DNA of 40,198 bases, from assembly GCA_028701335.1 (NCBI GenBank), contig JAQVQY010000008.1:1-40198 (forward strand). The letters are read 5' to 3'. The notes under the pieces are model-generated. The model worked only from the letters and a program-made list of their open reading frames with translations. It was not told the DNA's origin and did no database searches. The DNA comes from Eubacteriales bacterium. Its GTDB lineage: Bacteria > Bacillota > Clostridia > Christensenellales > Aristaeellaceae. Every line of letters starts with the position of its first letter. Position 1 is the stretch's first letter. The position numbers and the translations under genes were made by a program. Shown one piece after another: positions 5,372 through 21,068 of the stretch.

Positions 5372-6853
5372 TCAGCGTTTCAGGATATCCGGGTGCAAAA
5401 GCACCATGGGCTTGGGCGGCCTACCCATAACGTTTTTGCGCTCCTCGTGGTAAAACCGAACCATGCCCAGCTGGGCCAGTTCATCAAGCGCCTTCTCAGT
5501 CTCCTGCGCGCGGGAAAAGCGCTTCCGGTTTTTAAGCCCCGCCCGCACCGAGGCTGTGCTCACCCGCCTTTCCCCACGGCGGGCCAGGTACCTGAGCATC
5601 TCCTCAGCCTCCTGGCTCAGCTCGTTCACCCCGCACAGCGCCTTCATGCTGTCCGCAAACCACCGGATCTGCCGGATGGCCCCCCGCATCACGTGCTCCC
5701 GGATGGCAAGGCCACTGAAGTCGATCAGCGCCATCAGCCCCGCCAAGCGCAGGGTGTTCCCGGCCAGCTTGCCCTCCCAGCCGCCGCCCAGGCCGCGCAG
5801 GTCGCCCCCGGGGCAGGAACGCCGCTCGATCTCCCGAGCCCAGTCCTCCCAGGCCTCCCGGGCGCCCTCATCGGGCTTCAGGGCAAAGGGCATGGAGATG
5901 GACAGGATGGACTTGACCCGCCTGTGGTATTTGGCCGCCAGCTCCTCATCCATCGGCGGGCCCACCACCAGGCGCCGGCCGATCATGCTCTCAGGCTCCG
6001 CTAAGAGGAAGCGAGCCACGGTGCCCCGCTGGCGCATCTGCTGGTCATTGATGAAGGCCTCCAGCACCTCCGTCTGCACCGCCAGGCACACGGACAGCGC
6101 CGCCTTTTCGATCTTCACCGGCGGCCGGCCGATGCGGGACACGGACACCGGCTCCCCGGAGTAGCCCTGGAGCACCGCGTCCAGGTTGGCGGGGCCCTGG
6201 GCGTAGCAGCCCGCCATCACCGAGAGCAGCGCGCCCTCCGCCGAGATGACCGCCATGCGACCCCCGTTCCTGGCCATGGCCTGGCCCAGGGCCTCAGGCG
6301 TGGCGTCGGTGACGATCAACTCATAGGGCTTGGTTTCGGGCAGTTCATGAAGGACCTCCGCCAGCCTGGCGGCCTCCTTCTCATCCCCCTTCTGCTGGGC
6401 TTTCTTAAGGGCGATCTCCCGGGCCTCCCGGAAGACCGCTTCCTGCCGGATGACGGGCGCGCGGCGCTCGTTCTCCTCCCGCTCATAGTCATGAGGGGGC
6501 TGGGTCAGAAGCCTTAAGCAAGGGCTTTTCCTTTCAGACGGGTCGGCGCCCACGGCGATGTAGAGCTGGACAGGCTCCTCATAGCCCCCGCCCATGTCCA
6601 CCTGGACGCGGCCCACGGCGGCGGCGGACAGGGTGCCGATCAGGAAGCAAGCGGCCATAGCCGGGGATACCTGAAGGCTTTTGGCGGCCTCCAGGGCTAT
6701 GCGGTGGCCCAGCTCCGGCATGGCGTCCAGGGGATAGGGGCCAACGGCGGGCCGCTCCAGGCTCCCCCAGGGGGCTTCCGGTTCCGAGTTCAGGAGGGCC
6801 TGGGCCTCCGGGGTGTCAAGCAATTGTTCATACATTTCCAGTTCTGTGGTCAA
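5372..6853 (-). CDS. DUF3987 (YfjI-like) replication-associated protein
   Basis: This 493-residue protein matches the DUF3987 family, which occurs in phages, plasmids and satellite islands next to primases. It carries the family's VGADPSERKSP stretch (a P-loop-like GxPSxxKSP), then a charged helical segment and a long C-terminal region with a winged-helix-like end. Its biochemical role is not established; an ATP-dependent replication or helicase-like function is usually presumed. The start is TTG at 6853, preceded by AAAGGAGAG. The primase lies 23 bases upstream, so the two form one operon. The low-efficiency TTG start, also used by the primase, suggests deliberately low expression (inference). 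Confidence 0.75.
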   Translation of the reverse strand: MTTELEMYEQLLDTPEAQALLNSEPEAPWGSLERPAVGPYPLDAMPELGHRIALEAAKSLQVSPAMAACFLIGTLSAAAVGRVQVDMGGGYEEPVQLYIAVGADPSERKSPCLRLLTQPPHDYEREENERRAPVIRQEAVFREAREIALKKAQQKGDEKEAARLAEVLHELPETKPYELIVTDATPEALGQAMARNGGRMAVISAEGALLSVMAGCYAQGPANLDAVLQGYSGEPVSVSRIGRPPVKIEKAALSVCLAVQTEVLEAFINDQQMRQRGTVARFLLAEPESMIGRRLVVGPPMDEELAAKYHRRVKSILSISMPFALKPDEGAREAWEDWAREIERRSCPGGDLRGLGGGWEGKLAGNTLRLAGLMALIDFSGLAIREHVMRGAIRQIRWFADSMKALCGVNELSQEAEEMLRYLARRGERRVSTASVRAGLKNRKRFSRAQETEKALDELAQLGMVRFYHEERKNVMGRPPKPMVLLHPDILKR

Positions 6854-6876
6854 TGGGTCTCTCCTTTCGATGTGGG

Positions 6877-7413
6877 TTATTGTGTTTCCTGTGCCATGGC
6901 GGCCTGAAGCCGCTCTTTGGGGTCAAGCCGCGTGAGGGTGTCCAGCCGGAGTTCGGCGGCGGCGCGCCGGGCCAGCGCCTGACAAAAGGCCGTTGTGCCG
7001 GGGACAAAGGCGGCCATCATCTCCTCCGCCTCCCGCGTCTCCCGGCAGGCCAGGTCCCACTGGGTGCTGTACCATTGGTCCGCCCGGGCCCTGAGCTTCA
7101 GCGCCCTCCCTCTTTGGGCGGCCCTTAAGTCCGGGGGCGGAACCGGCCTGCCTTCCGCCAGCAGCCGCGCCGCCTGGAGCGGGGTGATGCCCCGGAGGGC
7201 TGACAACAGTGCCACCGCGTCCCCGCCCCGGCCGCAGCCAAAGCAGTGCCAACGGCCCTTTTCGTCAAACATGATCGAGGGCGTCTTTTCCCCGTGGAGC
7301 GGGCAGTTGGCCCAGTGGCGGCTGCCCCTTGGTTTCAGCTCAAGCCCCTCCCCCCGCGCCGCTTCCATGGCCGGGATCCCCCGGCAGCGCTCAAACACCG
7401 ACAGCTCCTTCAA
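6877..7413 (-). CDS. CHC2 zinc-finger primase-like protein
   Basis: The protein has 178 residues. It contains a DnaG-type zinc-binding domain, CPLHGEKTPSIMF followed by WHCFGCGRGGDAVALL, i.e. a C-H-C-C ligand set. The TOPRIM catalytic domain of full primases is absent; the C-terminus is a helical tail. It probably supplies DNA recognition for replication initiation together with the DUF3987 partner. The ORF track extends to 7614, but a very strong AAAGGAGGTGA site lies eight bases before a TTG at 7413, and the zinc finger begins shortly after, so I place the start there. Sequence between 7414 and 7614 holds repeats and a terminator instead of coding DNA. Confidence 0.75.
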   Translation of the reverse strand: MKELSVFERCRGIPAMEAARGEGLELKPRGSRHWANCPLHGEKTPSIMFDEKGRWHCFGCGRGGDAVALLSALRGITPLQAARLLAEGRPVPPPDLRAAQRGRALKLRARADQWYSTQWDLACRETREAEEMMAAFVPGTTAFCQALARRAAAELRLDTLTRLDPKERLQAAMAQETQ

Positions 7414-7459
7414 AAAAAGATCACCTCCTTTCGGTGGTGACCGTACCGCATGAGGCAAC

Positions 7460-7507
7460 TGACATGTAATGACATGTTGACTGACATCAACTGACATGGG
7501 GTGACAT
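7460..7507. repeat. Five phased TGACAT repeats (iteron- or operator-like)
   Basis: TGACAT occurs at 7460, 7470, 7482, 7492 and 7502, with steps of 10, 12, 10 and 10 bases, all in the same orientation. The array lies between the upstream operon's terminator and the primase ribosome site, which is where either the promoter of the primase operon or a replication origin would be. Near-helical spacing suggests one face of the DNA is bound by an oligomer of one protein. Confidence 0.7.
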
Positions 7508-7729
7508 GGTGGCAAGATGAAAAGCCCACCGCGATGGTGGGCTCTGCTGTGAGACGTGACTCCAATATGGAAAAGTGATATCATCCCAAACCATGGCGTC
7601 CCCACTGGCAACAATCAGTTCAGCGATAAAAAACTCATCCGCCTATGGCGCGTACTCCGACTCCTTCGCCAACGCGGCGCATTCATCACCGGTTAAGCCA
7701 ATGGATACCTTATTCGTTAGTTTGGTCCT
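7487..7729 (-). pseudogene. Possible decayed small gene
   Basis: One minus-strand frame stays open from about 7729 to 7487 except for a single TAG near 7676. It reads plausibly as protein (for example IGLTGDECAALAKE, then ADEFFIAELIVASGDAM). No start codon is in frame: the nearest ATG (7733) lies in a neighbouring frame and gives only seven codons. The final third runs through the terminator, so the end may be artefactual. I do not recognise it. It would sit just after the 101-residue gene in the same operon. Confidence 0.3.
7519..7543 (-). terminator. Rho-independent terminator
   Basis: On the minus strand an 8-bp AGCCCACC/GGTGGGCT stem with a five-base loop is followed by TTTT. It closes the small-gene operon that starts at 8911 and separates it from the primase operon. 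Confidence 0.75.
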
Positions 7730-7743
7730 TCATAGTACCAGCA

Positions 7744-8049
7744 TCAACGGCTTCTGTAATCCGCGAAATTGGCCAGCCATTCCGGAACGCGATTACCATA
7801 GCCCCGCTGTTTCAAAAAGCTTGCGAGGGCGTTAAAGGTGGTCAATATCTTCCAACGGGGATGCGGATCGCGGGAATCCCCAATATGGCTGCCTACAAAA
7901 ACTCCCTCCATCAGGTATGACGCTCTGTTGTCCCTCAGAAACAGATAAAGGAGGTGGTCGTCAGCGATGAACGGGTAGTGGTGATTTTTCTCCTCAGGCA
8001 ACTTCGTCACAATCTTGTCCCAATCATACTCCATCCAGTCAATTTCCAT
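7744..8049 (-). CDS. Hypothetical protein, 101 aa
   Basis: The ATG at 8049 follows AAGGAGGG by five bases, a better start than the ORF-track start at 8139. The protein is acidic and aromatic at the N-terminus (EIDWMEYDWDKIV), with no membrane segment, signal peptide or known motif that I can see. It could be a small immunity- or anti-defence-like protein, but nothing in the sequence decides this. It is the third gene of a minus-strand set of small accessory genes (8911, 8529, 8049). Confidence 0.6.
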   Translation of the reverse strand: MEIDWMEYDWDKIVTKLPEEKNHHYPFIADDHLLYLFLRDNRASYLMEGVFVGSHIGDSRDPHPRWKILTTFNALASFLKQRGYGNRVPEWLANFADYRSR

Positions 8050-8202
8050 AAAATCCCTCCTTATTTCGTTTGAAATGCCTGAATGAAAAACAGGACATGT
8101 TGGCGGGCAGATCATCGATCCGCCTTTTATTGGCAGCATTTTAAGTGGTCATTCGTTATTTGCCGATTAATGTGCTCATCAATTGACAACTATTTGATGC
8201 GT

Positions 8203-8529
8203 TTACTCCCCGGACAGTTCGATTCCCTCTCCCCGCTCCATCTTTTCAATCAATGTCTTCAGGCCCTTGAGAGGTTTGGTCAGCGCTTTAACATTTACGT
8301 CTGTCCGGTATTCTTCCAGCGCGTCATAGACTTCCCGGAGGTCATCCACGGAGATTTCACCCTCGTCATCATACAGGGCATCCTCCAGGGGCTGGTAGAT
8401 GCCATAGAAGGAGTTGGCAGGGTGGCACTTCATCGCGGCGTTCAGATTGCTGGAGCGGAAAGGCACGGTGCCCATGAACATCCCATCGGTGATGGCGTTG
8501 AGCTGGGCGATGACTGATCGTAGGGTCAT
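8203..8529 (-). CDS. Hypothetical protein, 108 aa
   Basis: The family is unrecognised. It is soluble and acidic, with predicted helices, and contains GIYQPLEDALYDDEGEISVDD-type acidic stretches in the middle. The ATG at 8529 is preceded by AGCAGG. An in-frame ATG at 8568, only 11 bases after the previous gene's stop, is the alternative start and would add 13 residues. About 150 bases without a gene separate it from the 101-residue gene downstream. Confidence 0.6.
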   Translation of the reverse strand: MTLRSVIAQLNAITDGMFMGTVPFRSSNLNAAMKCHPANSFYGIYQPLEDALYDDEGEISVDDLREVYDALEEYRTDVNVKALTKPLKGLKTLIEKMERGEGIELSGE

Positions 8530-8578
8530 TTTTTTACCTGCTTTCAATAAATATTCTAAGTCCGCCATACAAGAATTA

Positions 8579-8911
8579 TTATATATTATAGGTTTTGATA
8601 TTCGACTCAATGAACTCTATTTCAGCGTTACTTAATTTATATTTCAAATATAATTCCTTGTCAGTCCAGCTCTTTGAAAAATCTTGAATAGGTACGAACT
8701 CGTATGCCGATGGAGAAAGCATTTGTGTGTAACTCTTTATCGCCACCAGCATCCTGAAAATCTTACTAATACAATAAGTAACCAATTTTTTCGCTTCTAC
8801 TTCCATCATCTGAGCGCACAGCCATTCCAACATGTTGAGCATCGGGTCTTCCATCCCCATAAACCGGAATAGCATACTTTGGAAATTCGTGGTATCCTTG
8901 CCTTGAGCCAT
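8579..8911 (-). CDS. Small protein resembling the C-terminal tail of Eco57I-type restriction-methylase proteins
   Basis: The ATG at 8911 follows AAGGAGGA. The first ~50 residues are Met-rich and unrecognised. The last ~60 contain YEFVPIQDFSKSWTDKELY and AEIEFIESNIK, which resemble from memory the extreme C-terminus (PLQDFSKxWTDEELYxKYxLTxEE) of large Eco57I/type IIG-like restriction-modification proteins. All catalytic methylase and nuclease parts are missing. It may be a stand-alone domain, an antirestriction decoy or a remnant given a new start. The good ribosome site argues it is translated. Confidence 0.55.
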   Translation of the reverse strand: MAQGKDTTNFQSMLFRFMGMEDPMLNMLEWLCAQMMEVEAKKLVTYCISKIFRMLVAIKSYTQMLSPSAYEFVPIQDFSKSWTDKELYLKYKLSNAEIEFIESNIKTYNI

Positions 8912-8946
8912 TGGTTCTCCTCCTTGTGAATGTCTTAGCAACATCA

Positions 8947-8975
8947 ATTGTAGCGGAGTCCCAGTGGCTTGCCCA
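8947..8975 (-). promoter_or_regulatory. Predicted promoter of the small-gene operon
   Basis: On the minus strand TGGGCA and TACAAT are 17 bases apart, about 35 bases upstream of the ATG at 8911. The -10 is good and the -35 is partial. Confidence 0.4.
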
Positions 8976-9097
8976 TATCCTTTCATCCTGGGCTAAGTTG
9001 CGAACATTAGTGTACTCTATCGGTCATTCAGGTGGTCATTGGCAATGGGTCTGGCTGCCTGTAAGCGGGGAAACGCATTTTTCAGCAGGCCCTATAT

Positions 9098-9135
9098 GAA
9101 AAAGGCGGGTTCGGCTTTTCGCAAAACCCGCCTTT
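9098..9135 (-). terminator. Terminator of the minus-strand sugar ABC operon
   Basis: An AAAGGCGGGTT/AACCCGCCTTT stem with a loop of about 13 bases is followed by TTTTT on the minus strand. It lies 46 bases after the binding-protein stop. It may also act weakly on the plus strand. Confidence 0.85.
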
Positions 9136-9180
9136 GACCGTTATTATAAGGATCGCATCAAGTCCTGCTAAGAATAATAA

Positions 9181-10128
9181 TTATTTCTTCAGTTTTGCCA
9201 AGAATTCGGCCGCATTTTCAGGTGTGCAAACATCACCGCCGACTTTGATCCAGCTTTCAACGGACTCCCCGTCCAGATACGCTTTTACCGCCTCAATTAC
9301 GCCTGATCCCTGGCCTGGAAGATCCTGGTTGAGCGTAGCGCTGATTTGCCCGTCAAGGACTGCCTGCAAACCTTCAGGCGCACCGTCAAATCCTGAGATC
9401 AGCATTTCTCCTTCACGGCCGGCTGCTGAGATCGCATTGTATGCGCCGATCGCCATTTCATCATTAAGAGCGATTACGAGGTCGATTTCGGAATATTTGA
9501 CAAGGAAACTTTCCATGATCTCCTGCGCGTTCGCACGGGAAAATTTCCCTTCCTGGCTGTCAAGGAGCACAACGCGATCGTCTTCAGCAATGGCTGCTTC
9601 GATTCCGGCGATGCGGTCCAGTGTTGTTTGGCCAGTCCGGTTTCCGTCAATGATAATCAGGTTAATTTTTTCCAGGTCGCTGAGTTTTCCAAACATGTAC
9701 TGGGCAATATCGTAACCGCCTTTTTCATTGCCCACGCCGACAAAGGTCACAATATCTTCAGGGTTTTTCACAAATGCGCGTGTATTCGTGGTAAAAACGG
9801 GGATACCGGCCTCAAGGGCTTTTTCTATGGCGGGGACGATTCCGGCGGAGTCGACAGGCGCAATGCAAATTGCATCAACCTGCTTTTCGATTGCGTCAAG
9901 CATGGCATTGTACTGCTCATCGGCGTTTTGTGTTTCCAGAGGCGAGTTTTCAGTTACTTTAACACCGATTTTTTCACCGGCCGCGATTGCGGCAGAAGCA
10001 AGGTAACGCCAGCCAGCTGAGGTATTGTCTTTGAGGATCAGAGTAACTTCATATTCCGCGGCATTCACACTTACGACACCGGCGACCAGCAAGGCCGCAA
10101 CCAACAGGTAACCCAGGAATCTTTTCAT
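9181..10128 (-). CDS. Carbohydrate ABC transporter substrate-binding protein (RbsB-like)
   Basis: This is a periplasmic-binding-protein type 1 (Peripla_BP_4) family protein of 315 residues, like ribose/galactose binding proteins. The signal peptide MKRFLGYLLVAALLVAGVV is followed by an Ala-x-Ala-like cleavage site (SVNAAEYE) and no lipobox Cys, so it should be released rather than lipid-anchored. Family segments include DAICIAPVDSAGIVPAIEKA, VGVGNEKGG and AIGAYNAISAAG. I chose the ATG at 10128 because GAGGAGG precedes it and the signal peptide begins there; the ORF track adds 48 residues. It is the last gene of its operon, which is unusual because the binding protein is normally first and most expressed. 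The ligand cannot be read from sequence. Confidence 0.88.
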   Translation of the reverse strand: MKRFLGYLLVAALLVAGVVSVNAAEYEVTLILKDNTSAGWRYLASAAIAAGEKIGVKVTENSPLETQNADEQYNAMLDAIEKQVDAICIAPVDSAGIVPAIEKALEAGIPVFTTNTRAFVKNPEDIVTFVGVGNEKGGYDIAQYMFGKLSDLEKINLIIIDGNRTGQTTLDRIAGIEAAIAEDDRVVLLDSQEGKFSRANAQEIMESFLVKYSEIDLVIALNDEMAIGAYNAISAAGREGEMLISGFDGAPEGLQAVLDGQISATLNQDLPGQGSGVIEAVKAYLDGESVESWIKVGGDVCTPENAAEFLAKLKK

Positions 10129-10177
10129 AGTAGAACCTCCTCGACATAATATATACTCTCTGCATAAGCAGAAAATA

Positions 10178-11137
10178 TCAGGTTTTTCTAACAGACGCGT
10201 TCCGGTCAACCAAAACGGAAAGGATAATAACCACTCCGCTGATACCGACTTGCCAATTTGAATCAACCCCAAGCAGGGTCATGCCATTGGAAACCAGGGT
10301 AAGAATAAGCGCGCCGATAACGACCCCTAATACGTTGCCGTTCCCGCCCCGGAAGGAGATGCCCCCGATTGCAGCGGCGGCAATTGCTGTCTGCGCAAAT
10401 TCGGCGCCGATGGTCGGCTCAGCCGCATTGAGTCGAGAGGTATATACGATCCCGGCAATCCCGGCGATTAGACTTGATAGAACATAGGTCGTGATTAATG
10501 TTTTGTTGACTGGGATTCCGGAATACCTGGCACTTTCCCTGTTGGAACCAACTGCATAAACCCGGTAGCCAAAGGTGGTCTTGTTTAATGTGAAGCTGAT
10601 GATCAGAAGCAGAATTACGGCGATGATAATGGGCATGGGAATTCCGAATAATTGCCCTCCTCCTATAAACCTGAAATCTTCTGTGAAGTTACTGTAAACA
10701 AGACCGCTTGTCAGCAGATAGGCTAAACCCCGCACTATCTGTTGCACACCGAACGTGGCCAGAAAGGGTGGCAAGTGCAGGAAAACGATGCAAAAGCCAT
10801 TGACAAGACCTATAAGGATGCTGACAGCAAGCATGCCTGTTATCCCCATAATCATTGAGGCAGTCGATTGGCCAACCTGAAAAAACTTGCCAAAGAGGAT
10901 CGAGGTAAGCGCAATTGTAGCGCCTATTGACAGGTCAATGCCGCCGACCAACATGCACAGCGCAACGCCAATAGCCATCATTAAAGTGAGTGAAGTAATT
11001 CTAAGCACATTGATTATGTTTGCCGCACTGGCAAAGGAAGGAGAAACAATCACCAGGGAAAGGAAAATAATTGCCAAAGCTGTCAGCCTTGAAAGTGTAT
11101 CCAATCGCGGCTTAAGCAATCCCCAGTATTTTTTCAT
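10178..11137 (-). CDS. Sugar ABC transporter permease (RbsC-like) 1b
   Basis: This is a 319-residue membrane protein of the BPD_transp_2 family with about 8-10 hydrophobic segments. It shows the family pattern: LVGGIDLSIGATIALT near residue 70, an NGFCIVFLHLPPFLATFG loop, the YAVGSNRESARYSGIPV cytoplasmic segment and GGISFRGGNGNVLG near the C-terminus. It forms the heterodimeric channel with the other permease. Its ATG overlaps the TGA of the preceding permease (ATGA), with a GGAG site inside that gene, so translation is coupled. Confidence 0.9.
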   Translation of the reverse strand: MKKYWGLLKPRLDTLSRLTALAIIFLSLVIVSPSFASAANIINVLRITSLTLMMAIGVALCMLVGGIDLSIGATIALTSILFGKFFQVGQSTASMIMGITGMLAVSILIGLVNGFCIVFLHLPPFLATFGVQQIVRGLAYLLTSGLVYSNFTEDFRFIGGGQLFGIPMPIIIAVILLLIISFTLNKTTFGYRVYAVGSNRESARYSGIPVNKTLITTYVLSSLIAGIAGIVYTSRLNAAEPTIGAEFAQTAIAAAAIGGISFRGGNGNVLGVVIGALILTLVSNGMTLLGVDSNWQVGISGVVIILSVLVDRNASVRKT

Positions 11138-12180
11138 ACGAATCTCCTGCGGTTTCTCAAGGTATCAACTGATACAACTGCTATAAGAACACATCCAATA
11201 GCTATCATCTGGATAGAATTGGACATCCCAATCATATTAAAGCCATTTTTCATGACAGAGATAATCAGAGCGCCTATGAGTGTGCGTCCCGGTGTACTTC
11301 GGCCGCCCGACATGGCTGCACCTCCAACGACTGCAGCAGCAATCCCGTCAAACTCCAGACCAAGCCCGTTTTGCGCGCTGGCAGACGTCAGCCTCGAGGT
11401 GAAGATGATGCCTGTAAAGGCCGCAATCATGCCTCCGTAGAGAAAAACCCTGTATCGGGTAAGCACGGTATTGATTCCGGATAATGCCGCCGACTCATTA
11501 TTTCCTCCGATAGCGTAGACATATGTTCCGAAGCGCGTTTTTTTCATGACGAAACTGAAGAAGATATACAACAGCAGCATAATAATCATGCTTATAGGCA
11601 ACAAACCAATGGAGCGCCGTCCTATCTGTACATTCAGCAGGGAACCGTTGCCTATGAACTCAAATAACGGGAGTCCATTAATGCGGATTGTTGTCCCGCC
11701 TGCAATCACACGGGAGAAAGTTTCGCAAATTTTATACATACCAAGGGTTACAATGAAAGAGGGGATCTTTGTGCGGGCAAGAATCAGCCCGTTCATGCTT
11801 CCGATGGCTGCCCCTGCGGCAATTGCCGCAGTTACTGCGATGAGAAGAAGGAAAACCGGATTATTATTGCGAATCTGGCTGAACAGCGGGATGTCCCAGG
11901 TTAGAATTTTGGCGGTGATCATACCCGAAAGGGACACAATACCACCCAATGAGAGGTCTACGCCGGTTGAACAGATTGCCAGGTAGGAAGCCAGGGCAAC
12001 TATCCCTACGCCGCTTGAACACTGCACAATCACATTCATGATATTTGATACGGTAAAATACTTGTCTGATAATAAAGAAAAAAACAGAATCATTCCAAAT
12101 AGCAGGAAAACCGTGGCCGGTACTTTATGATAGTAGTGAGCAAGGGTTTCCCTTCTGCTCCGCAATGATTGGCTATTCAC
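11134..12180 (-). CDS. Sugar ABC transporter permease (RbsC-like) 1a
   Basis: This 348-residue inner-membrane permease pairs with the 319-residue permease. Visible family motifs are CSTGVDLSLGGIVSLSG, NGLILARTKIPSFIVTLG, YAIGGNNESAALSGI and VVGGAAMSGG. It uses a GTG start at 12180, preceded by AGGAGGGG and overlapping the ATPase stop (GTGA). Two distinct permeases rather than a homodimer is seen in several CUT2-like subgroups. Confidence 0.9.
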   Translation of the reverse strand: MNSQSLRSRRETLAHYYHKVPATVFLLFGMILFFSLLSDKYFTVSNIMNVIVQCSSGVGIVALASYLAICSTGVDLSLGGIVSLSGMITAKILTWDIPLFSQIRNNNPVFLLLIAVTAAIAAGAAIGSMNGLILARTKIPSFIVTLGMYKICETFSRVIAGGTTIRINGLPLFEFIGNGSLLNVQIGRRSIGLLPISMIIMLLLYIFFSFVMKKTRFGTYVYAIGGNNESAALSGINTVLTRYRVFLYGGMIAAFTGIIFTSRLTSASAQNGLGLEFDGIAAAVVGGAAMSGGRSTPGRTLIGALIISVMKNGFNMIGMSNSIQMIAIGCVLIAVVSVDTLRNRRRFV

Positions 12181-13694
12181 GCGACTACCCCTCCTGCTGC
12201 AAAGGCGATTATCTCCTCCTGTGTCACATGGCTGTCCTTGAACTCTTTGACTATTCGCCCTTCCCTCATCACGTATATCCGGTCAGCGATGGTCAGCAGT
12301 TCAGGCAGGTCTGATGAAATGACCAGGATTCCCTTCCCATTCCTGGCCAGGTCATCAATAAGGAAATGAATCTCCTCTTTCGCGCCTACATCAACCCCCC
12401 TGGTTGGCTCATCAAATATCAGAAAATCCGATTCTGTCGCAAGCCACTTGGCGAGTACGACTTTTTGCTGATTTCCGCCAGACAGGTTACTCACATTGCG
12501 CTTGGTATCGGGAGTGATAATCCGAAGACGCTTGCGGTAGTTTTCCGCAATATCTTTTTCCTTTTTCCTCCTGACAATTCCCATCGGGAACAGCATGCTT
12601 AACGCTGCATGTACAATATTTGTCCTAATAGGAAGATTGAGCGAAAGGCCTTGCTCTTTCCGGTTTTCCGGAAGAAATCCGGCTTTTCTCATCACGCACT
12701 TGCCGGGTGAACTTTTTTCTAATTCCCTGCCAAAAAGCGCAATATAACCTTTGCTGCGGCGCTTGATGCCGAAAATTGTCTGGGCAAGTTCCGTTCTGCC
12801 CGAGCCGACAAGCCCGGCAATGCCAACGATTTCGCCTCGGCGGACGTTAATGGAGATATCCTGGAGCAGTTTTCTGTCCCAGAGGCCCCGCACCTCCAAT
12901 GCCATGCTTTCCTGAACCGTGTTCTCCTCTCGGATTCTTTCCCGTTGAATCTCCCTGCCGACCATTAATCGTATCAACTCGTCCATGCTTGCCTCGCTCA
13001 CAAGCCTGGTTCCCACAGTCTGTCCATCGCGCAATACGGTTATCCGATCTCCAATTTTGTACACTTCATGCAATCTGTGCGAGATGTAGATTATTGAGAC
13101 ACCACGTGCCTTCAGCCTGAAGATGGTGTCAAATAATGTGTTGATTTCGTTTTCACTTAATGTCGCAGTCGGTTCATCCATGATAAGGATTTCCGAATCA
13201 AACGACAACGCTTTCGCCAGTTCAACAAGCTGCTGATGAGCTACGCCAAGCAACTCGACTTTATCCGTGGCGGAAATTCCAGTGTTCAGGGAGTCAAGGA
13301 TCGCTTGTGCATCTGCGTTGAGCTTCTTGCGGTCCAAAACACCCCTGCTGGAAACGGGCTCTCTTCCCAGGAAAATGTTCTGCGCAACAGTAAGGTTGGG
13401 AACCAGATTGAACTCCTGAAAAATAATTGCGATACGTGCAAGTTGCGCATCTCTCGTATTTTGAAATTCCACTTTTTTGCCGTTGAGGTAGATTTCTCCG
13501 CTGTCCTGCTGATAAACGCCTGACAGCACTTTCATGAGCGTAGACTTGCCGGCACCATTTTCACCGATCAAAACGTGGACTTCACCCTTACACAAGTCAA
13601 ACGATACATTATCCAGAGCTTTAACTCCCGGAAACTCCTTACAGACATTTTGTACTTTCAGGAACGGCTCAACCGCCTTCTCAGTATTTTCCAT
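12177..13694 (-). CDS. Sugar ABC transporter ATP-binding protein (RbsA/MglA-like), system 1
   Basis: This 505-residue protein has two fused nucleotide-binding domains, as in CUT2 importers. Domain 1 has Walker A GENGAGKST, Walker B ILIMDEPTATLS and an H-loop ISHRLHE. Domain 2 has the usual degenerate P-loop GLVGSGRTEL, a signature LSGGNQQKVVLAKWL and an intact Walker B LIFDEPTRGVDVG. It powers the two permeases downstream. It starts 16 bases after the M24 gene stop with only a weak ribosome site, so translation may re-initiate from that gene. Confidence 0.93.
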   Translation of the reverse strand: MENTEKAVEPFLKVQNVCKEFPGVKALDNVSFDLCKGEVHVLIGENGAGKSTLMKVLSGVYQQDSGEIYLNGKKVEFQNTRDAQLARIAIIFQEFNLVPNLTVAQNIFLGREPVSSRGVLDRKKLNADAQAILDSLNTGISATDKVELLGVAHQQLVELAKALSFDSEILIMDEPTATLSENEINTLFDTIFRLKARGVSIIYISHRLHEVYKIGDRITVLRDGQTVGTRLVSEASMDELIRLMVGREIQRERIREENTVQESMALEVRGLWDRKLLQDISINVRRGEIVGIAGLVGSGRTELAQTIFGIKRRSKGYIALFGRELEKSSPGKCVMRKAGFLPENRKEQGLSLNLPIRTNIVHAALSMLFPMGIVRRKKEKDIAENYRKRLRIITPDTKRNVSNLSGGNQQKVVLAKWLATESDFLIFDEPTRGVDVGAKEEIHFLIDDLARNGKGILVISSDLPELLTIADRIYVMREGRIVKEFKDSHVTQEEIIAFAAGGVVA

Positions 13695-13710: not shown

Positions 13711-14862
13711 CTATATCACTTCGAGCATTCCGGGGCGTGAGTACTGAACACCATTTATTGTAGCCCTTATCTCCGGGAATGTGACCGGATATGTGATGAA
13801 CATCGGGCCACGCTCTGTGACAATGAATCCATCCTCTGTCTTGGTTCCAGTAATGGATGGGTTGTAGCCATAACATTGGTTCAGGCGCACCACCTCATGA
13901 GAAGAAGGGGCAATCAGATAGAAGCCATTCGTGTAGCTTTGGGGCCCTCCCTGATGGTGCAGTCTCCACATATCCGGATACCCCGCGATTTCGTACAGTT
14001 TCTTTGACAACTCAAGGATCTGCAAATCATCCACTCCTGGTTTTGTTGCGTCAGCCATAAGGTTCTCAATTTCAACCGTCTGCTCATACTGTGCTTTTAG
14101 TTCCTCTGGCGCCTTGCCAAAGTATGCCATTCGTGTAATTTTTGTAATCAAGCCTTTATAACGCGCGTTACATGATATCATAAGGTATTTTTCGAGCTTT
14201 TTGCTGGTGGGAACAGGATGGCGGTGATCATATATGCGTTGATCGGTAGCGACCAGGAAGAGTACCGGCTCAAGCCCTTCCTTCCACATTTCTTCTGCCA
14301 AGCCTCCGGCAATCGCGATCTCCGTATCGCCTGGACGTATGCTTGGGATAAATCCTTCAATAACGCGTGAAAAAGTCTTGCCGAGATGAAGATATCGGGC
14401 GATTTCATTGACACACAATACCTTTTGGCGGTTTAAAATGATCGGATTTGCATCCACTGCTCCCGGAAGCGGGACGTCTGATGCCAAACTCCCATTCCCA
14501 AGCAAACGCTGCAGTTGCCCGGTGGTCTCATCCTCATACCAGTTAAACGTAATGGGTTCAAACCCCAACTCCTCCAGCATTTCTTCTTCCTTCATGCGTT
14601 TTTCCTCGATATTGTTGCAGAAGAAAAATAATTTGCTGTCTGTTACCAGAATCGCACAGACGCCGTCTTCCTTATACCGCGTCACGATATTATCTCCGCC
14701 TGCAGTAAGCCAGGCAAAGTTCTCAGACTTCCTGATATAAACCGCTTTCCAATCTTCCCGCGCCATGTCTGCGCGAAGAAGCCGGACTTTTTTGTCAATC
14801 TCTGCACGCCTTCCGGAAATCGTGTTATCCATAATATACTGATCACGCATCATATTTTTCAT
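13711..14862 (-). CDS. M24 (aminopeptidase P/creatinase-fold) family protein lacking metal ligands
   Basis: The 383 residues comprise an N-terminal creatinase-like domain (to about 175) and a C-terminal pita-bread M24 domain. Where metal-dependent M24 enzymes have Asp...Asp, this protein has ISCNARYKGLITKITR, so both Asp positions are replaced (Ser and Lys). A His remains in RLHHQGG and a Glu in IVTERGP. That fits a metal-free hydrolase like creatinase, or a non-catalytic protein. It lies in the operon between an isomerase and a sugar transporter, so a role in processing the imported compound is plausible. Met 1 (14862) is very close to the GGAAAGG site; Met 4 or 5 may be the true start. Confidence 0.8.
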   Translation of the reverse strand: MKNMMRDQYIMDNTISGRRAEIDKKVRLLRADMAREDWKAVYIRKSENFAWLTAGGDNIVTRYKEDGVCAILVTDSKLFFFCNNIEEKRMKEEEMLEELGFEPITFNWYEDETTGQLQRLLGNGSLASDVPLPGAVDANPIILNRQKVLCVNEIARYLHLGKTFSRVIEGFIPSIRPGDTEIAIAGGLAEEMWKEGLEPVLFLVATDQRIYDHRHPVPTSKKLEKYLMISCNARYKGLITKITRMAYFGKAPEELKAQYEQTVEIENLMADATKPGVDDLQILELSKKLYEIAGYPDMWRLHHQGGPQSYTNGFYLIAPSSHEVVRLNQCYGYNPSITGTKTEDGFIVTERGPMFITYPVTFPEIRATINGVQYSRPGMLEVI

Positions 14863-14873
14863 TTCCTTTCCAA

Positions 14874-15662
14874 TTACTTTAACATTGTTAATACTTCGGC
14901 GATCACTTCTTCATCCGGCTTTCCTGAAGGAGAGAACTCAAAGCCGACAATCCCTGAATAGCCGGTATCTTTTAGCGCTTTGATAATGTTGGCATAGTTT
15001 AGTTCGCCGGTCCCTGGCTGGTGGCGCCCAGGCACGTCAGCAATATGGAAGTGACCGAAATATTTGGCGTTAGCCTTAATAGTTTCAATGATATTGCCTT
15101 CCATTATCTGCATGTGATAGGCATCGTAAAGCAACTTGACGGACGGGCTTCCAACAGCCCGGATTATTTCCACCCCCTCCGCCGTGGAGGACAAAGAGTA
15201 ACCCGCGTGATCCACAATTGTATTGAGTGGTTCAATTACCAGCGTCACCTCCGCCTCTTCCGCTATGGGAGCAAGCTCATGGAGTACAGAAATGGTATTC
15301 TCCCTCATTTCCGATGGGGAAATCAAATATTGATGAGGCTTTACGCTCCGGTCTTCCTGCATGATATCCGACATGCAAAATACGGCTTTCGCCTTAAGCC
15401 TCGATGCGAGCACGATTGATTTTTTCAAGTCCTCTATGTAAATATCCCTGTCATTCTTGTCGACCATAACTCCGCGGATGCTGCCTTGAAAGGATGCGAT
15501 TTTGATCTGCGCTTCTTCTGCTGCACGCTCAATGGCATCAACATCCTTGCCAGCCCAATCCCAGAACTCCACATAGTCGAATCCCGCTTCTTTTGCTTTC
15601 TTGAATCGATCCAAAAAATGTTCCTTTAGAAAAATCATCTCAATGCAACACGAGAATTCCAT
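14874..15662 (-). CDS. Hydroxypyruvate isomerase-like TIM-barrel sugar isomerase/epimerase
   Basis: The protein has 262 residues of the AP-endonuclease-2-like TIM barrel found in Hyi, xylose isomerase-like and IolE/IolI enzymes. The metal site Glu-Asp-His-Glu is readable as VIEPLNT, LLYDAYHMQ, HIADVPGRHQPGTGE and GFEFSPSG. The GRHQPGTGELNY element is typical of the Hyi subgroup. It would isomerise or epimerise a small hydroxy-keto acid or sugar derivative in the cytoplasm. It is the first gene of the minus-strand operon, with AGGTGA before the ATG at 15662, and it is followed by the M24 gene after only 11 bases. The exact substrate is unknown. Confidence 0.8.
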   Translation of the reverse strand: MEFSCCIEMIFLKEHFLDRFKKAKEAGFDYVEFWDWAGKDVDAIERAAEEAQIKIASFQGSIRGVMVDKNDRDIYIEDLKKSIVLASRLKAKAVFCMSDIMQEDRSVKPHQYLISPSEMRENTISVLHELAPIAEEAEVTLVIEPLNTIVDHAGYSLSSTAEGVEIIRAVGSPSVKLLYDAYHMQIMEGNIIETIKANAKYFGHFHIADVPGRHQPGTGELNYANIIKALKDTGYSGIVGFEFSPSGKPDEEVIAEVLTMLK

Positions 15663-15768: not shown

Positions 15769-15798
15769 ACTATACCGTGTCTATTCAGGCGTTGTCAA
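15769..15798 (-). promoter_or_regulatory. Predicted promoter of the minus-strand sugar operon
   Basis: On the minus strand a perfect TTGACA and a TATAGT are 18 bases apart, leaving an untranslated leader of about 100 bases before the isomerase gene. Confidence 0.7.
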
Positions 15799-16284: not shown

Positions 16285-17286
16285 ATGAAAAGACTCGTCG
16301 TTATCCTTATCGCCGGTGTGATTCTGCTGGGTATGTCCTCTGGGTTCGCTGAGAACGATCCCTTTATCCAGGACATGGTGATCGCGCACTTGCCAAAAAC
16401 CGTCGGTGGCGCTTGGTTTACCCGCATGTACCAGGGGTTTGGCCAATACTCGGGAATGTCTGGTTCGGAAACATTCCAAATTGGCCCGAGCACAGGTGAT
16501 GCTGCTGCCCACAACGCAAACGTACAGGACCTTGTTGCCCAGGGTGTGGACGCTATCTGTGTCGTGCCATACGCGCCGGAGCAAATTGACGCTGAACTCG
16601 GCAAAGCACGCGCTGAAGGAACCATCGTTATTTCCAATGAAGGGACCAAGCTTCAGAATATTGATTATGATCTGGAAGCTTTCGATAATACGAAGTTTGG
16701 TCAAGGTGCTGCTGAACTCCTTGGCGAAGGCATGGGAGGCAAGGGTTCAATCATCGTTTTTGTCGGCAGCCTGGGCTCGACTGCCCATATGTCTTGGGCA
16801 AACAGCATAGTGGATACGATCCAAGCCAAATATCCAGATATCCAAGTGGCGAATAAAGACGGTGTCTTCATCGAAACCGGCAACAACGCTGCCAACTCAT
16901 ATGAGAAGGCCAAGGAAGCATTAAAAGCCTATCCGGAAGCCACCGGAATCTTCTGCCCATCAGCAACGGATACTCCATCTATCGCCCGTGCTATTCAGGA
17001 AGCTGGGTTGACGAACCAAATCACTTACGTTGCTGTCGGACTTCCCAACGCCGTACGCACTTATGTAAAGAGCGGAGACCTGGATGTAGTGGTATGCTGG
17101 GATCCAGCGGATGTTGGTTTGGCAATGTGCAAACTTGCTGCGGCGGCAAAATCAGGCTACGAAGTAAAAACAGGTGATGATCTTGGGGTGTTTGGATTCA
17201 ATAACGTAATAGTAGAGGGCAAAGTGGTTATGGGGTCCGAATGGCGTGTTCTCACGGCTGCGGAAATTGACGATTTTAACTACTAA
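16285..17286 (+). CDS. Sugar ABC transporter substrate-binding protein (RhaS/LsrB-like)
   Basis: This 333-residue type 1 periplasmic binding protein is closest in feel to the rhamnose/autoinducer-2 (RhaS, LsrB) branch: AHLPKTVGGAWFTRMYQGF near the N-terminus, GVDAICVVPYAPEQI, and VYVA-like ITYVAVGLPNAVR. The signal peptide is MKRLVVILIAGVILLGMSS with cleavage near GFAEN and no lipobox Cys. AGGAGG lies eight bases before the ATG. It is the first gene of the plus-strand operon and is followed by a strong hairpin, which fits higher expression than the transporter genes. The ligand is unknown. Confidence 0.87.
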   Translation: MKRLVVILIAGVILLGMSSGFAENDPFIQDMVIAHLPKTVGGAWFTRMYQGFGQYSGMSGSETFQIGPSTGDAAAHNANVQDLVAQGVDAICVVPYAPEQIDAELGKARAEGTIVISNEGTKLQNIDYDLEAFDNTKFGQGAAELLGEGMGGKGSIIVFVGSLGSTAHMSWANSIVDTIQAKYPDIQVANKDGVFIETGNNAANSYEKAKEALKAYPEATGIFCPSATDTPSIARAIQEAGLTNQITYVAVGLPNAVRTYVKSGDLDVVVCWDPADVGLAMCKLAAAAKSGYEVKTGDDLGVFGFNNVIVEGKVVMGSEWRVLTAAEIDDFNY

Positions 17287-17349
17287 TGTCGCGTAATGTT
17301 GGGACAATAATGGTGCTTCTGAAGATCTGTTTACAGACGATATGATATT

Positions 17350-17390
17350 GGGAGATGCGGATAAAAAGCATTATCCGCATCTCCCTTATT
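17350..17390 (+). terminator. Strong intra-operon hairpin after the binding-protein gene
   Basis: Perfect 15-bp arms (GGGAGATGCGGATAA and its complement) with a 6-base loop are followed by TTATTGTTGTT, 30 bases before the ATPase gene. The weak T-run suggests partial termination or mRNA 3'-end protection, the usual way to get more binding protein than transporter. Confidence 0.75.
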
Positions 17391-17419
17391 GTTGTTGGAT
17401 TCAGGCGAGGTAAAGAACT

Positions 17420-18919
17420 ATGGCTGATAAACTTGTTGAGCTAAAGACGATCAATAAAATGTTCTCCGGGGTCAGTGTTCTTAAAAATGTTGATCTCTCA
17501 GTTTATGCTGGAGAAGTGCTCTGTTTGGTGGGCGAAAATGGCAGCGGGAAATCCACTCTCATCAAAATCATCTCAGGGGTTTATCCCTATGAAGGCGGAG
17601 AATTATACCTTGCCGGAAAGCATTTCGCCAAGCCAACTCCCACCCAGTCAATTAACGAGGGTATTCAGGTTATTTACCAGGATTTTTCTGTGTTCTCCAA
17701 TCTGACAGTTGCGGAAAATATTGCCATGAGCAGTAACATCCAAAACAAGAAAAAGATAGTCAATTGGCGTAGAAATCATAAAATTGCCTCAGAAGCTCTC
17801 AAGAAAATTGACGTTAAGATGGATCTTGAAGCCGAGCTTGCCTCCTTGTCGGTCGCGCAAAAGCAGATTGTGGCGATTTCGCGCGCAATATCCCAAAAAG
17901 CGAAGCTGATTATAATGGATGAACCAACAACCGCTTTGACCCGCAAGGAAATAGACCGTCTGTTTGAAATAATTCGCGGTTTGAAAGCGCAAGGCATTGC
18001 GATCATTTTCGTTAGTCATAAACTGGATGAAGTTTTCGAGATTTGCGACAGAATAGCGGTTATTCGAAGCGGTGAAATTGTAGTGGATCTTCCAGTGGAA
18101 GAGTTCCCTCGTGACAAACTCGTCTATTATATGATTGGCAAGGATATACAGGAGGAATGTTTTGCCTGCAGCCCATCCGCTGAAAATCCAATGATTCGGG
18201 TCAACAATATATCCCGCAGAGGCGAATTTCGAAATGTCAGCTTTTCTGTCCGCCCTGGCGAAATTTTGGCAATAACCGGTCAACTCGGATCCGGAAGGAC
18301 AGAGCTTGCGTTATCTCTTTTTGGGATTAATCCCATACAATCCGGAGAAATTTTCATTCAGGGGAAAAAAGTAAAGATAAAAAACCAAAGGGAAGCCCGG
18401 AAATTGGGCATCGCATATCTTCCTGAAGACAGACTATCAGAAGGTCTATACATGAATCGCTCGCTGGGTGATAACTTCTCATCAGTTATTATCAGTCAGC
18501 TTAAAAACAGGTTTGGAATTATCAAGAACGCGGTATTGGAATCAAATTCCAATTATTGGATAGAGAAACTTGGCATGACACGAAAACGGTACACCACACC
18601 TGCATCGGATTTCTCCGGAGGAAATCAGCAGCGCATTGTCCTGGGAAAGTGGCTTGCGACAAGCCCGAAGATTTTCGTTCTCAACGGCCCAACGGTTGGG
18701 GTGGATGTAAAGTCAAAAAGCGAAATTCACGCAGTTATAAAAGATTTGGCTGCGCAAGGGATGGCCGTAATTATTATATCTGACGATATCGGCGAAATAC
18801 TGTCTACGTCAAGTAAAGTAATTGTCATGCGTGACCATCATATTATTTTTGAAGGAAATACATGTGACATCAGCCACCAGGAGTTGAACGCGCAAATTCT
18901 GTCCAGTCAGGCAAACTGA
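17420..18919 (+). CDS. Sugar ABC transporter ATP-binding protein, system 2, with degenerate second domain
   Basis: This is a 499-residue tandem nucleotide-binding protein. Domain 1 is complete: Walker A GENGSGKST, Walker B LIIMDEPTTAL, H-loop VSHKLDEV, with a non-standard signature LSVAQKQ. Domain 2 keeps the signature SGGNQQRIVLGKWL but its Walker B reads FVLNGPTVGVDV, so the Asp and catalytic Glu of the usual LDEPT are Asn and Gly, and the switch His is Asp (IISDD). Domain 2 is therefore likely unable to hydrolyse ATP, giving an asymmetric motor. It starts 134 bases after the binding-protein stop. Confidence 0.9.
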   Translation: MADKLVELKTINKMFSGVSVLKNVDLSVYAGEVLCLVGENGSGKSTLIKIISGVYPYEGGELYLAGKHFAKPTPTQSINEGIQVIYQDFSVFSNLTVAENIAMSSNIQNKKKIVNWRRNHKIASEALKKIDVKMDLEAELASLSVAQKQIVAISRAISQKAKLIIMDEPTTALTRKEIDRLFEIIRGLKAQGIAIIFVSHKLDEVFEICDRIAVIRSGEIVVDLPVEEFPRDKLVYYMIGKDIQEECFACSPSAENPMIRVNNISRRGEFRNVSFSVRPGEILAITGQLGSGRTELALSLFGINPIQSGEIFIQGKKVKIKNQREARKLGIAYLPEDRLSEGLYMNRSLGDNFSSVIISQLKNRFGIIKNAVLESNSNYWIEKLGMTRKRYTTPASDFSGGNQQRIVLGKWLATSPKIFVLNGPTVGVDVKSKSEIHAVIKDLAAQGMAVIIISDDIGEILSTSSKVIVMRDHHIIFEGNTCDISHQELNAQILSSQAN

Positions 18920-18987
18920 ATCGCAATGTCCGCCAAGCGGTGTTCCTGGAATCCTGCCTGCCTGCAGATATCTTTAAAGAGGTAAAA

Positions 18988-19998
18988 ATGATTAAGCGTA
19001 TTGTCCTGAAGAATGAATTTTTGTCGTTGTCGATGATACTCCTGTTTGGAATCATCTTCGGCATTGCCAACCCAACTTTTTTAAGCCTAATCAACATATT
19101 GGATCTCTTGAAAATGTGCGTAAAACCAGCAATTTTCGCATGTGGAGTTATGATTGTCCTGATCAGTGGCGGCATTGACATGAGTTTTCTTTGGATTGGC
19201 ATGTTTTCTGCCTATTCTACATCGAAACTATTCTCAATTGTGCAGGCAAATGGGACAATTGTCCCTTTTGCTGTCATCTTGCTTGTCAGCATGTTTATCG
19301 GCGCCCTGCTGGGGAGCATTAATTCATTGTTGGTATCGAAGTTCAGAATTCCGGTTTTCATCGCGACACTGAGCTCAGCAAACATCTTTATGGGTATCAT
19401 GTTTCAGTTTGTCGGTAGCGAATATATTTTCCCGGAACAAATGCCCCAATCGATGATTGAATTTTCCAATAAATTGCTTTTCAGTTTTCCTTCACAAGGC
19501 GGCACTTTGGTTGGGCTGCATGTTTCAGTATTATATGCCATTGCCGCCCTTCTGATAACGCATCTTGTCATGCGTTACACAATGATGGGACGCAGCGTAT
19601 ATGCCCTGGGCGGAGATGCTTCCTCCGCGGAGCGGGTGGGATTCAGCCTGATAAAAACCAACTTGTTTGTTTTCATGATGGCCGGTCTAATTGCCGGCCT
19701 CGCCGGTGCAATTGCCATTAGTAATATTCAGGTTGCAAATCCCTATGATTTCCAAGGGCAGGAGCTGACTGTAACCGCTGCTGTCATTATCGGCGGCACA
19801 AGAGTGACCGGCGGGAAGGGAAGTGTTTTGGGAGTCGCATTGGGAGTATTGCTTACAAATTTGATATCTCAAAATCTGATTCTGGTGGGCGTACCTCCTG
19901 AATACAACAAGTTTGTGTTTGGCCTCCTGATAATATTCGCGACAATCGTGCAGGCTGTACAAGAGCGGGCACGGAAAGCCTTGTATCGGGGCTTATAA
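18988..19998 (+). CDS. Sugar ABC transporter permease 2a
   Basis: This is a 336-residue BPD_transp_2 permease with many hydrophobic helices. Motifs include ISGGIDMSFLWIGMFSAY, INSLLVSKFRIPVFIATLSS, YALGGDASSAERVGF and IIGGTRVTGGKGSVLG. I use the ATG at 18988, which follows AAAGAGG, instead of the ORF-track start at 18940 that adds a hydrophilic extension with no ribosome site. It is followed after 11 bases by its partner permease. Confidence 0.88.
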   Translation: MIKRIVLKNEFLSLSMILLFGIIFGIANPTFLSLINILDLLKMCVKPAIFACGVMIVLISGGIDMSFLWIGMFSAYSTSKLFSIVQANGTIVPFAVILLVSMFIGALLGSINSLLVSKFRIPVFIATLSSANIFMGIMFQFVGSEYIFPEQMPQSMIEFSNKLLFSFPSQGGTLVGLHVSVLYAIAALLITHLVMRYTMMGRSVYALGGDASSAERVGFSLIKTNLFVFMMAGLIAGLAGAIAISNIQVANPYDFQGQELTVTAAVIIGGTRVTGGKGSVLGVALGVLLTNLISQNLILVGVPPEYNKFVFGLLIIFATIVQAVQERARKALYRGL

Positions 19999-20009
19999 AG
20001 AGGGGAATT

Positions 20010-21068
20010 ATGATGAGAATTATCCGAAAAATTGACAATAAAACGCTGCAACTGGCGGTGATATGTGTTGTTTTATTCACCGTGATGGCATTTATCAGGC
20101 CGAAGTTCACCAGCAGCGCGAATATCTACTCCATGATGATGCAGATTGGCACATCAGGATTGTTTGCGGTCTGTATCGCGATTGTGTATCTTTCACGAGG
20201 TATTGACTTGTCAATAATCAGCATCGCAAACTTAGTCGGCATTATATGCGGTGTTATCTTTCGGACGGCACTTAATGAATCTTCTTCTGATGCGGAAGTA
20301 ACGGGTGTTATTCTTTTATGTGTGCTCATCGGCATCTTTATCGGAATGCTTTGCGGTTTCATTAATGGACTGCTAATCGCTGAACTTGGTATTTTCCCCA
20401 TCCTGGTCACATTGGCAACTCAAAACATTTTTATGGGGATATCCATGATTATCACACAGGGCCGTGCTGAAACGGATATTCCCAAGTCCCTGATCCAGTT
20501 TGCGGACTCAAGTATTCTCAGTATTGGGGATTTCCGGGGCATCCCAATTATATTGCTTTTGTTTCTTGCCATATATGTTTCCTTATCCGTCATCGTTCAC
20601 AAAACGCCTTTCGGATTCAAGCTTCAATGGCATGGATCCAACAGCCGGGTCTCCTTCTTCAATGCGATTGACAACAAGAGGGTAATTTATACGACTTATA
20701 TTTTGAGTGGCGCTGTGGCTGCGGTCGGTGGCCTAATTATTACGGGGCGTACAGGCTCTGCCAAAGCAGATTATGGTGGCAACGCTGTTTTCCAAGCCTT
20801 GCTTACATGCGTATTGGCGGGTATCAGCCCTCTTGGAGGACGGGGCAAAGTATATAACCTTATCCTGTCATTAATGGCACTCCAGTTTCTGAGCACGGGT
20901 TTTAATATGCTTCGCATCAGCCCGCTTATCAGGGACTCGCTTTATGGCTTTTTGCTTGTTTTCTCTATTATCATGGAGTATTTGATTGAGAAGAGAAGGG
21001 TTAATATGCTGAACAAAAAGACAATGTTGACAGAGAGAATGACTGCATCGAGATACACGCGATCGTGA
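20010..21068 (+). CDS. Sugar ABC transporter permease 2b
   Basis: This 352-residue second channel subunit has LSRGIDLSIISIANL, NGLLIAELGIFPILVTLATQN, HGSNSRVSFFNAI and AGISPLGGRGKVYN in the family order. AGAGGGG precedes the ATG. The C-terminal ~25 residues are basic and unlike the rest, possibly extended by loss of an earlier stop. It is the last intact gene of the plus-strand operon, and no clear terminator follows. No metabolic enzyme accompanies system 2, in contrast to system 1. Confidence 0.88.
   Translation: MMRIIRKIDNKTLQLAVICVVLFTVMAFIRPKFTSSANIYSMMMQIGTSGLFAVCIAIVYLSRGIDLSIISIANLVGIICGVIFRTALNESSSDAEVTGVILLCVLIGIFIGMLCGFINGLLIAELGIFPILVTLATQNIFMGISMIITQGRAETDIPKSLIQFADSSILSIGDFRGIPIILLLFLAIYVSLSVIVHKTPFGFKLQWHGSNSRVSFFNAIDNKRVIYTTYILSGAVAAVGGLIITGRTGSAKADYGGNAVFQALLTCVLAGISPLGGRGKVYNLILSLMALQFLSTGFNMLRISPLIRDSLYGFLLVFSIIMEYLIEKRRVNMLNKKTMLTERMTASRYTRS

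Follow-up and report, generated by a model that had tools for sequence, protein, structure and literature searches.

An M24-fold protein family of bacterial sugar operons as a proposed metal-free aldose mutarotase that alternates with GalM in some gal operons

M24 metallopeptidases are defined by a set of five metal ligands, Asp-Asp-His-Glu-Glu. Prolidase (Xaa-Pro dipeptidase, MEROPS M24; PDB 4fkc, 1wy2, 1pv9, 3q6d) shows the pita-bread fold over its full length, and the same two-domain fold is found in creatinase (creatine amidinohydrolase; PDB 1kp0, 1chm, 7yto), which is metal-free and provides a precedent for catalysis by His and Glu in this architecture. A further non-peptidase catabolic enzyme of the same fold is the ectoine hydrolase EutD/DoeA (PDB 6twj, 6twk). 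The interconversion of sugar anomers is, by contrast, the reaction of GalM (aldose 1-epimerase, PF01263), a beta-sandwich protein unrelated in sequence that acts through its own His and Glu. In the literature that we searched, no paper tied M24 proteins to mutarotation or reported M24 genes in gal or xyl operons; the fold and the reaction type are each known, and it is their pairing, proposed here, that is undescribed there. Candidate sulfoquinovose (SQ) mutarotases that are not homologous to the one known from Herbaspirillum have been mentioned (PMC11659671), and SftX/DUF4867, a cupin of sulfoquinovose operons, was credited on the basis of its context with a putative role as mutarotase of a sugar or ketose and then showed no mutarotase activity when tested (PMC11968277). 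Like the family described below, SftX/DUF4867 is an uncharacterised protein of different fold to which operon context has lent a mutarotase role, and its case shows that context alone can mislead.

The window analysed here, a stretch of 40,198 nucleotides from a Eubacteriales bacterium, encodes a protein of 383 residues whose family is annotated in public records as M24 family metallopeptidase or aminopeptidase P. Peptidase_M24 (PF00557) is its sole Pfam match (41.7 bits, cut-off 23). AlphaFold2 predicted a pita-bread fold with high confidence (pLDDT 95.9, pTM 0.93), and the nearest solved folds in Foldseek were prolidase (TM 0.76) and creatinase (TM 0.71–0.73), with EutD/DoeA at about 0.69. 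The gene is real and of M24 fold, and the resemblance to creatinase put forward in the sequence-only reading is borne out at the level of structure. At the level of sequence the relationships are distant, with 15–19% identity to prolidases, about 15–16% to creatinase and 14–16% to EutD/DoeA, and a search of solved structures returned none close (best E 1.8e-5, prolidases). Among the NCBIfam and Pfam matches there was no creatinase-specific model, the shared N-terminal domain PF01321 being found in 49 of 80 family members, and the operons that house the family are those of plain sugars, not of creatine. The ectoine hydrolase models TIGR02993 and NF038259 left the window protein unmatched and hit three and two of the 80 members, respectively (best E 3.7e-5 and 1.3e-4). 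All 80 members of alignment A4 matched PF00557, and PF01263 matched neither the window protein nor any of them, so that a likeness to GalM would be one of analogy, not homology.

To compare the ligand positions, we aligned an 80-sequence family profile with prolidases by HMMER and HHalign, and used a MAFFT alignment as well. HMMER and HHalign agreed that the first Asp column is occupied by a shortened loop or a non-acidic residue, and the second by Lys in the window protein and by Ser, Ala or Asn in its relatives. The segment that bears both Asp ligands in prolidases (ISCNARYKGLITKITR) contains neither here, and positions 231–233 and 241 are never Asp in the 80-sequence alignment, in agreement with the original observation that both had been replaced. 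The accompanying claim that the His and one Glu remain stood for the last Glu of the metal site, which both profile methods identify as E343. The first Glu, that of the EPG motif, is lost, either to N334 or in a five-residue deletion depending on the alignment, and the His differs by method: HHalign pairs the invariant His of HHQGG with the non-ligand His of the prolidase HxxGH motif, HMMER places the neighbouring His of HHQGG on that same residue, both put Pro, Ala, Gly or similar in the metal-His column, and the MAFFT alignment would permit H303 as the metal His. H215 of the RHP motif, also retained, is a different His and aligns with a conserved non-ligand His of prolidases. Judged from these alignments, one of the five ligands is surely kept and two are possibly kept, and the window protein falls short of the full set. 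What the family shares with prolidase is this non-ligand His, a TR motif and the last Glu, whereas it lacks the two Asp and the first Glu, probably lacks the metal His as well, has an invariant set of its own (W51, W108, HHQGG, WNP and GxKxED) and resides in sugar operons.

Because these ligands are missing throughout the family, with the Asp pair and the first Glu absent from all 80 relatives, we rule out a metallopeptidase identity, as the sequence-only reading had anticipated. The automatic annotation would fit a metal-dependent Xaa-Pro peptidase that lies in a sugar operon by happenstance; given the missing ligands, and a canonical prolidase encoded separately in the same genome (L001), this is highly improbable. 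Recent decay of a prolidase in a metagenome-like draft genome was likewise dismissed, the substitutions being common to relatives across phyla. The window's genome (G000) holds three further M24-fold genes without the Asp pair (VQLSLGAKYSGYCGNMCR, VQLNLSAKIDGYSAAIG, VHLGVAPKCDGLNACQR; L003 1444-2625 (-), L004 985-2163 (+) and L005 1105-2442 (-)). One adjoins a sugar-binding protein gene, another a deacetylase-like ORF, and the third has ORFs on both sides that were named by eye as sugar-amine-type; the three look like other non-peptidase M24 groups.

Of 399 genomes sampled over the window's phylum, 53 hold relatives of the window gene; others are plasmid-borne, in Thermus, Pantoea, cyanobacteria and haloarchaea. 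A contig scan of species-representative genomes, with alignment A3 as the query and the stretch W-N-P-x-x-x-G-x-K as the search pattern, yielded at least 587 confirmed family loci, which among the matches listed span Chloroflexota, Armatimonadota, Planctomycetota, Bacillota, Bacteroidota, Latescibacterota, Actinomycetota and others. Across 80 members, 21 residues are invariant: W51, E86, W108, D129, R214, H215, G237, R244, Y290, G294, W299, H303, Q304, G305, G306, N334, P335, G339, K341, E343 and D344. The invariance of N-P, G and K was partly selected by the search pattern, outside which E343 and D344 lie. The window protein keeps all 21, and the result was repeated on alignment A4. Since the Asp-ligand positions are Asp in 0/80 members and these 21 others never vary, the loss of the Asp pair is not a matter of chance. 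The same conservation bears on whether the family might be a non-catalytic sugar sensor or scaffold, a pseudoenzyme like Spt16 or Ebp1. The metal site is indeed gone, and the peptidase-like domains of Spt16 are recognisable by fold in Foldseek, but some 21 polar, aromatic and glycine positions held invariant over many phyla argue against such a role, as do partner genes that vary widely and a profile search that found no added DNA-binding domain in members of A4; we regard a pseudoenzyme as unlikely. Long ORFs at L059, L072, L108 and L074 were taken as over-extended reading frames, not fusions.

In the window, the gene lies second in an operon ordered TIM-barrel isomerase, M24, ATPase, permease, permease, binding protein, with successive spacings of an 11-bp gap, a 16-bp gap and two 4-bp overlaps (Table 1). 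That it sits within a sugar-import operon with a CUT2 importer therefore holds: a double ATPase, BPD_transp_2 permeases and a Peripla_BP_4 protein are all present. The ATPase scored about 520 bits against GguA/AraG/RbsA-type models, under their cut-offs, and the start of the binding protein was placed at the ATG of MKRFLGYLL, the onset of a signal peptide. For the first gene, described earlier as Hyi-like, the superfamily assignment is sound, but the exact name hydroxypyruvate isomerase is ruled out by a TIGR03234 score of 174.6 bits against an equivalog cut-off of 353.45.

Table 1. Features of the sugar-import operon and of its M24-fold gene, in window coordinates
Feature	Position	Strand	Basis
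Sugar-binding protein	9181..10128	-	PF13407, 170.3 bits
CUT2 permease 2	10178..11137	-	PF02653, 141.7 bits
CUT2 permease 1	11134..12180	-	PF02653, 119.6 bits
CUT2-type sugar ABC transporter, double ATPase	12177..13694	-	PF00005, two stretches
M24-fold protein, metal site lost, 383 aa; proposed aldose mutarotase	13711..14862	-	ORF and PF00557
N334-P335...K341-T-E343-D344; N, P, K, E and D invariant; E343 is the surely kept ligand position	13831..13863	-	
H303-Q304-G305-G306 of HHQGG, invariant in 80/80, aligned with the prolidase HxxGH stretch	13945..13956	-	
ISCNARYKGLITKITR, residues 229-244; prolidase segment of both Asp ligands, neither present	14131..14178	-	Alignments
R214-H215 of the RHP motif, invariant in 80/80; candidate acid/base	14218..14223	-	80-sequence and prolidase alignments
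TIM-barrel sugar isomerase/epimerase (AP_endonuc_2 superfamily, hydroxypyruvate-isomerase-like), first gene of the operon	14874..15662	-	PF01261, 157.9 bits
Promoter-like site TTGACA-18-TATAGT upstream of the operon, 11/12 matches	15769..15798	-	Consensus match only

About 620 bp from this operon, a second and divergent CUT2 importer (16285-21068 (+)) comprises a RhaS/LsrB-like binding protein, a double ATPase and two permeases, with a strong terminator-like hairpin between its binding-protein and ATPase genes (17350-17385). Downstream of the operon, a DUF3987 protein and a primase-like CHC2 zinc-finger protein (5372-7614 (-)) are typical of an integrated mobile element.

The window protein also departs from its family in places. 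Gly replaces R313 and Tyr replaces W333, residues that are each conserved in 79 of the 80 members; in addition, Ser stands for the near-invariant G309, and relatives of 47–48% identity retain R313. With these departures, the substrate or activity of this particular copy may have shifted. Its genome contains two GalM genes, which together with the changes at R313 and W333 makes a shift in its own role conceivable, and the M24 copy lies outside any gal operon.

We examined the surroundings of the family by clustering neighbour genes and then identifying the clusters by profile. In Thermus the family gene accompanies xylA-xylB; at L172 it accompanies araB-araD-araA behind a CUT2 importer, as it does at L160 by the same neighbour clusters; and at L173 it accompanies galK, galT, galE and a GH42 beta-galactosidase. 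The galE and M24 genes overlap by 4 bp in two different groups (L173 and L075). Elsewhere the neighbours are the hexuronate genes KduI/UxaA/UxaB/UxaE with a TRAP transporter, Gfo/Idh oxidoreductases with tripartite transporters, and isomerases akin to SftI, the sulfoquinovose isomerase (536 bits, short of the cut-off of 700), together with glycerol kinase and GlpABC-like genes. The last combination, an SftI-like isomerase, the M24 gene and GlpK/GlpABC-like genes, recurs at L065, L090, L092, L081 and similar loci, in some cases with an aldehyde ferredoxin oxidoreductase-like gene, and possibly represents a pathway, so far undescribed, for sulfoquinovose or a deoxysugar. Of the genes within 2 kb of a family gene, 17% encode core sugar enzymes, as do about 3% of those beyond 6 kb. 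Sixty of 141 loci have such an enzyme in the same gene run, and in about half of the 141 the run contains nothing recognised as a sugar gene. With the family gene left aside, the one step missing from the xyl, ara and gal pathways is the switch between anomers. In the gal case, GH42 is a retaining beta-galactosidase that releases beta-galactose, and GalK takes the alpha anomer.

These surroundings speak against the uptake and breakdown of a nitrogen-containing sugar or small amide, which had been suggested for the window operon: the family is found in plain-aldose operons (xylA-xylB, araB-araD-araA, galK-galT-GH42-galE) and with hexuronate genes, and it trades places with GalM. The corresponding enzyme would be a creatinase-like metal-free hydrolase of the C-N bond in a nitrogen-containing sugar derivative or small amide. 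Creatinase and EutD offer this chemistry in the same fold (TM about 0.7), and a 48%-identical relative (L045) adjoins an amidohydrolase-family gene. The completeness of the plain-aldose operons, the alternation with GalM in gal operons and the scarcity of ectoine-hydrolase matches (3/80 members, none better than E 3.7e-5) nevertheless make this quite unlikely for the family. For the window's own branch, the amidohydrolase neighbour of L045 leaves room for a nitrogenous sugar, which may be its substrate. At that locus (7153-11432) the M24 gene is flanked on one side by the amidohydrolase-family gene and on the other by a gene of 440 aa that matches no Pfam model; an Fe-ADH, TIM-barrel isomerases and a GntR regulator are also present, and the locus offers a clue to what the window's subgroup acts on.

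The exchange with GalM was analysed in the Bacillales family of Bacillus sp. NTK071, represented by 15 genomes, whose gal operon (LacI-galK-galT-GH42-galE) is otherwise the same with or without the M24 gene. Ten genomes carry the M24 gene; all ten have galK in the same neighbourhood and none has a canonical GalM, two of them holding a weak PF01263 paralogue (93 bits) of another kind. All three galK-positive genomes that lack the M24 gene possess a canonical GalM, and the two galK-negative genomes have neither gene. Among galK-positive genomes of this family, the alternation is significant (Fisher p = 0.0035). In most of the ten genomes the M24 gene directly follows galE, and in G712 the order is galE-M24-galK-galT. 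A tree of concatenated gal-operon proteins places the three M24-less genomes on three separate branches, with M24-bearing groups in between. G720, one of the three, retains a scar of the deletion: after galE, 11 codons from the start of the M24 gene and a stretch from its C-terminal part survive, and the middle is gone. GalM of the three M24-less genomes is encoded outside the gal operon, at two unrelated positions. In a second family, the two genes exchange in the same slot, galK-galE-galT-GalM in G565 corresponding to galK-galE-galT-M24 in G436. Overall, GalM occurs within about 10 kb of a family gene in only 2 of 142 loci (L109 around 7900 (+) and L135 3983 (+)).

On a wider scale the relationship depends on the sample. 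Across the window's phylum, 7 of 20 galK-positive genomes with the family carry GalM, as against 74 of 98 that lack the family (p = 0.0009), but with each taxonomic family contributing a single count per state the comparison becomes 7/13 versus 28/39 (p = 0.31). In the class of Pelolinea (Anaerolineae-type; 140 genomes) GalM was not excluded, being found in 6 of 29 genomes with the family and 19 of 111 without. Nearly all genomes of this class have galK and few have GalM, and the family loci examined there are mostly tied to other sugars. Many galK-positive genomes of this class have neither gene, and hence a mutarotase is dispensable in them. The Bacillales and same-slot data also bear on a role in sugar-damage repair, in which glycosylamines, early glycation products or lactones of sugars that arise during aldose uptake would be hydrolysed. 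Such a role would equally account for the link to many different sugars and would draw on the C-N chemistry known in this fold from creatinase and EutD. It leaves unexplained both the same-slot exchange with GalM and the all-or-none GalM pattern of one family, and we consider it improbable.

Taken together, aldose operons that are complete but for mutarotation, the alternation with GalM in two families and an invariant residue set containing His and Glu lead us to propose that the family is a metal-free aldose mutarotase that replaces GalM and comparable enzymes by non-orthologous displacement, a reading to which we assign a probability of roughly 0.6. In the proposed mechanism, the metal-free pocket would open and re-close the sugar ring by general acid-base catalysis, acting on the anomeric hydroxyl and the ring oxygen. 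Candidate catalytic residues are H215, H303 and E343, with N334, K341 and Q304, and the conserved W51, E86, R89, W108 and D129 of the N-terminal half might contribute to sugar binding, perhaps from the other subunit of a dimer, as in creatinase. In the window, the M24 protein would provide the TIM-barrel isomerase with the imported sugar in the correct anomeric form.

Whether the family amounts to a new fold class of mutarotase serving gal, ara, xyl, hexuronate and sulfoquinovose-type operons, with GalM displaced repeatedly, we hold to be an even bet. At least 587 loci in species-representative genomes carry the gene under a misleading peptidase label, and the Bacillales gal operons constitute a natural experiment on its exchange. 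If the proposal is true, a missing mutarotase step would be filled in many sugar pathways by a fold new to that activity, a peptidase and amidinohydrolase fold having been turned to carbohydrate anomerisation, and the loss of the metal site in the M24 superfamily would open the way to sugar chemistry besides C-N cleavage.
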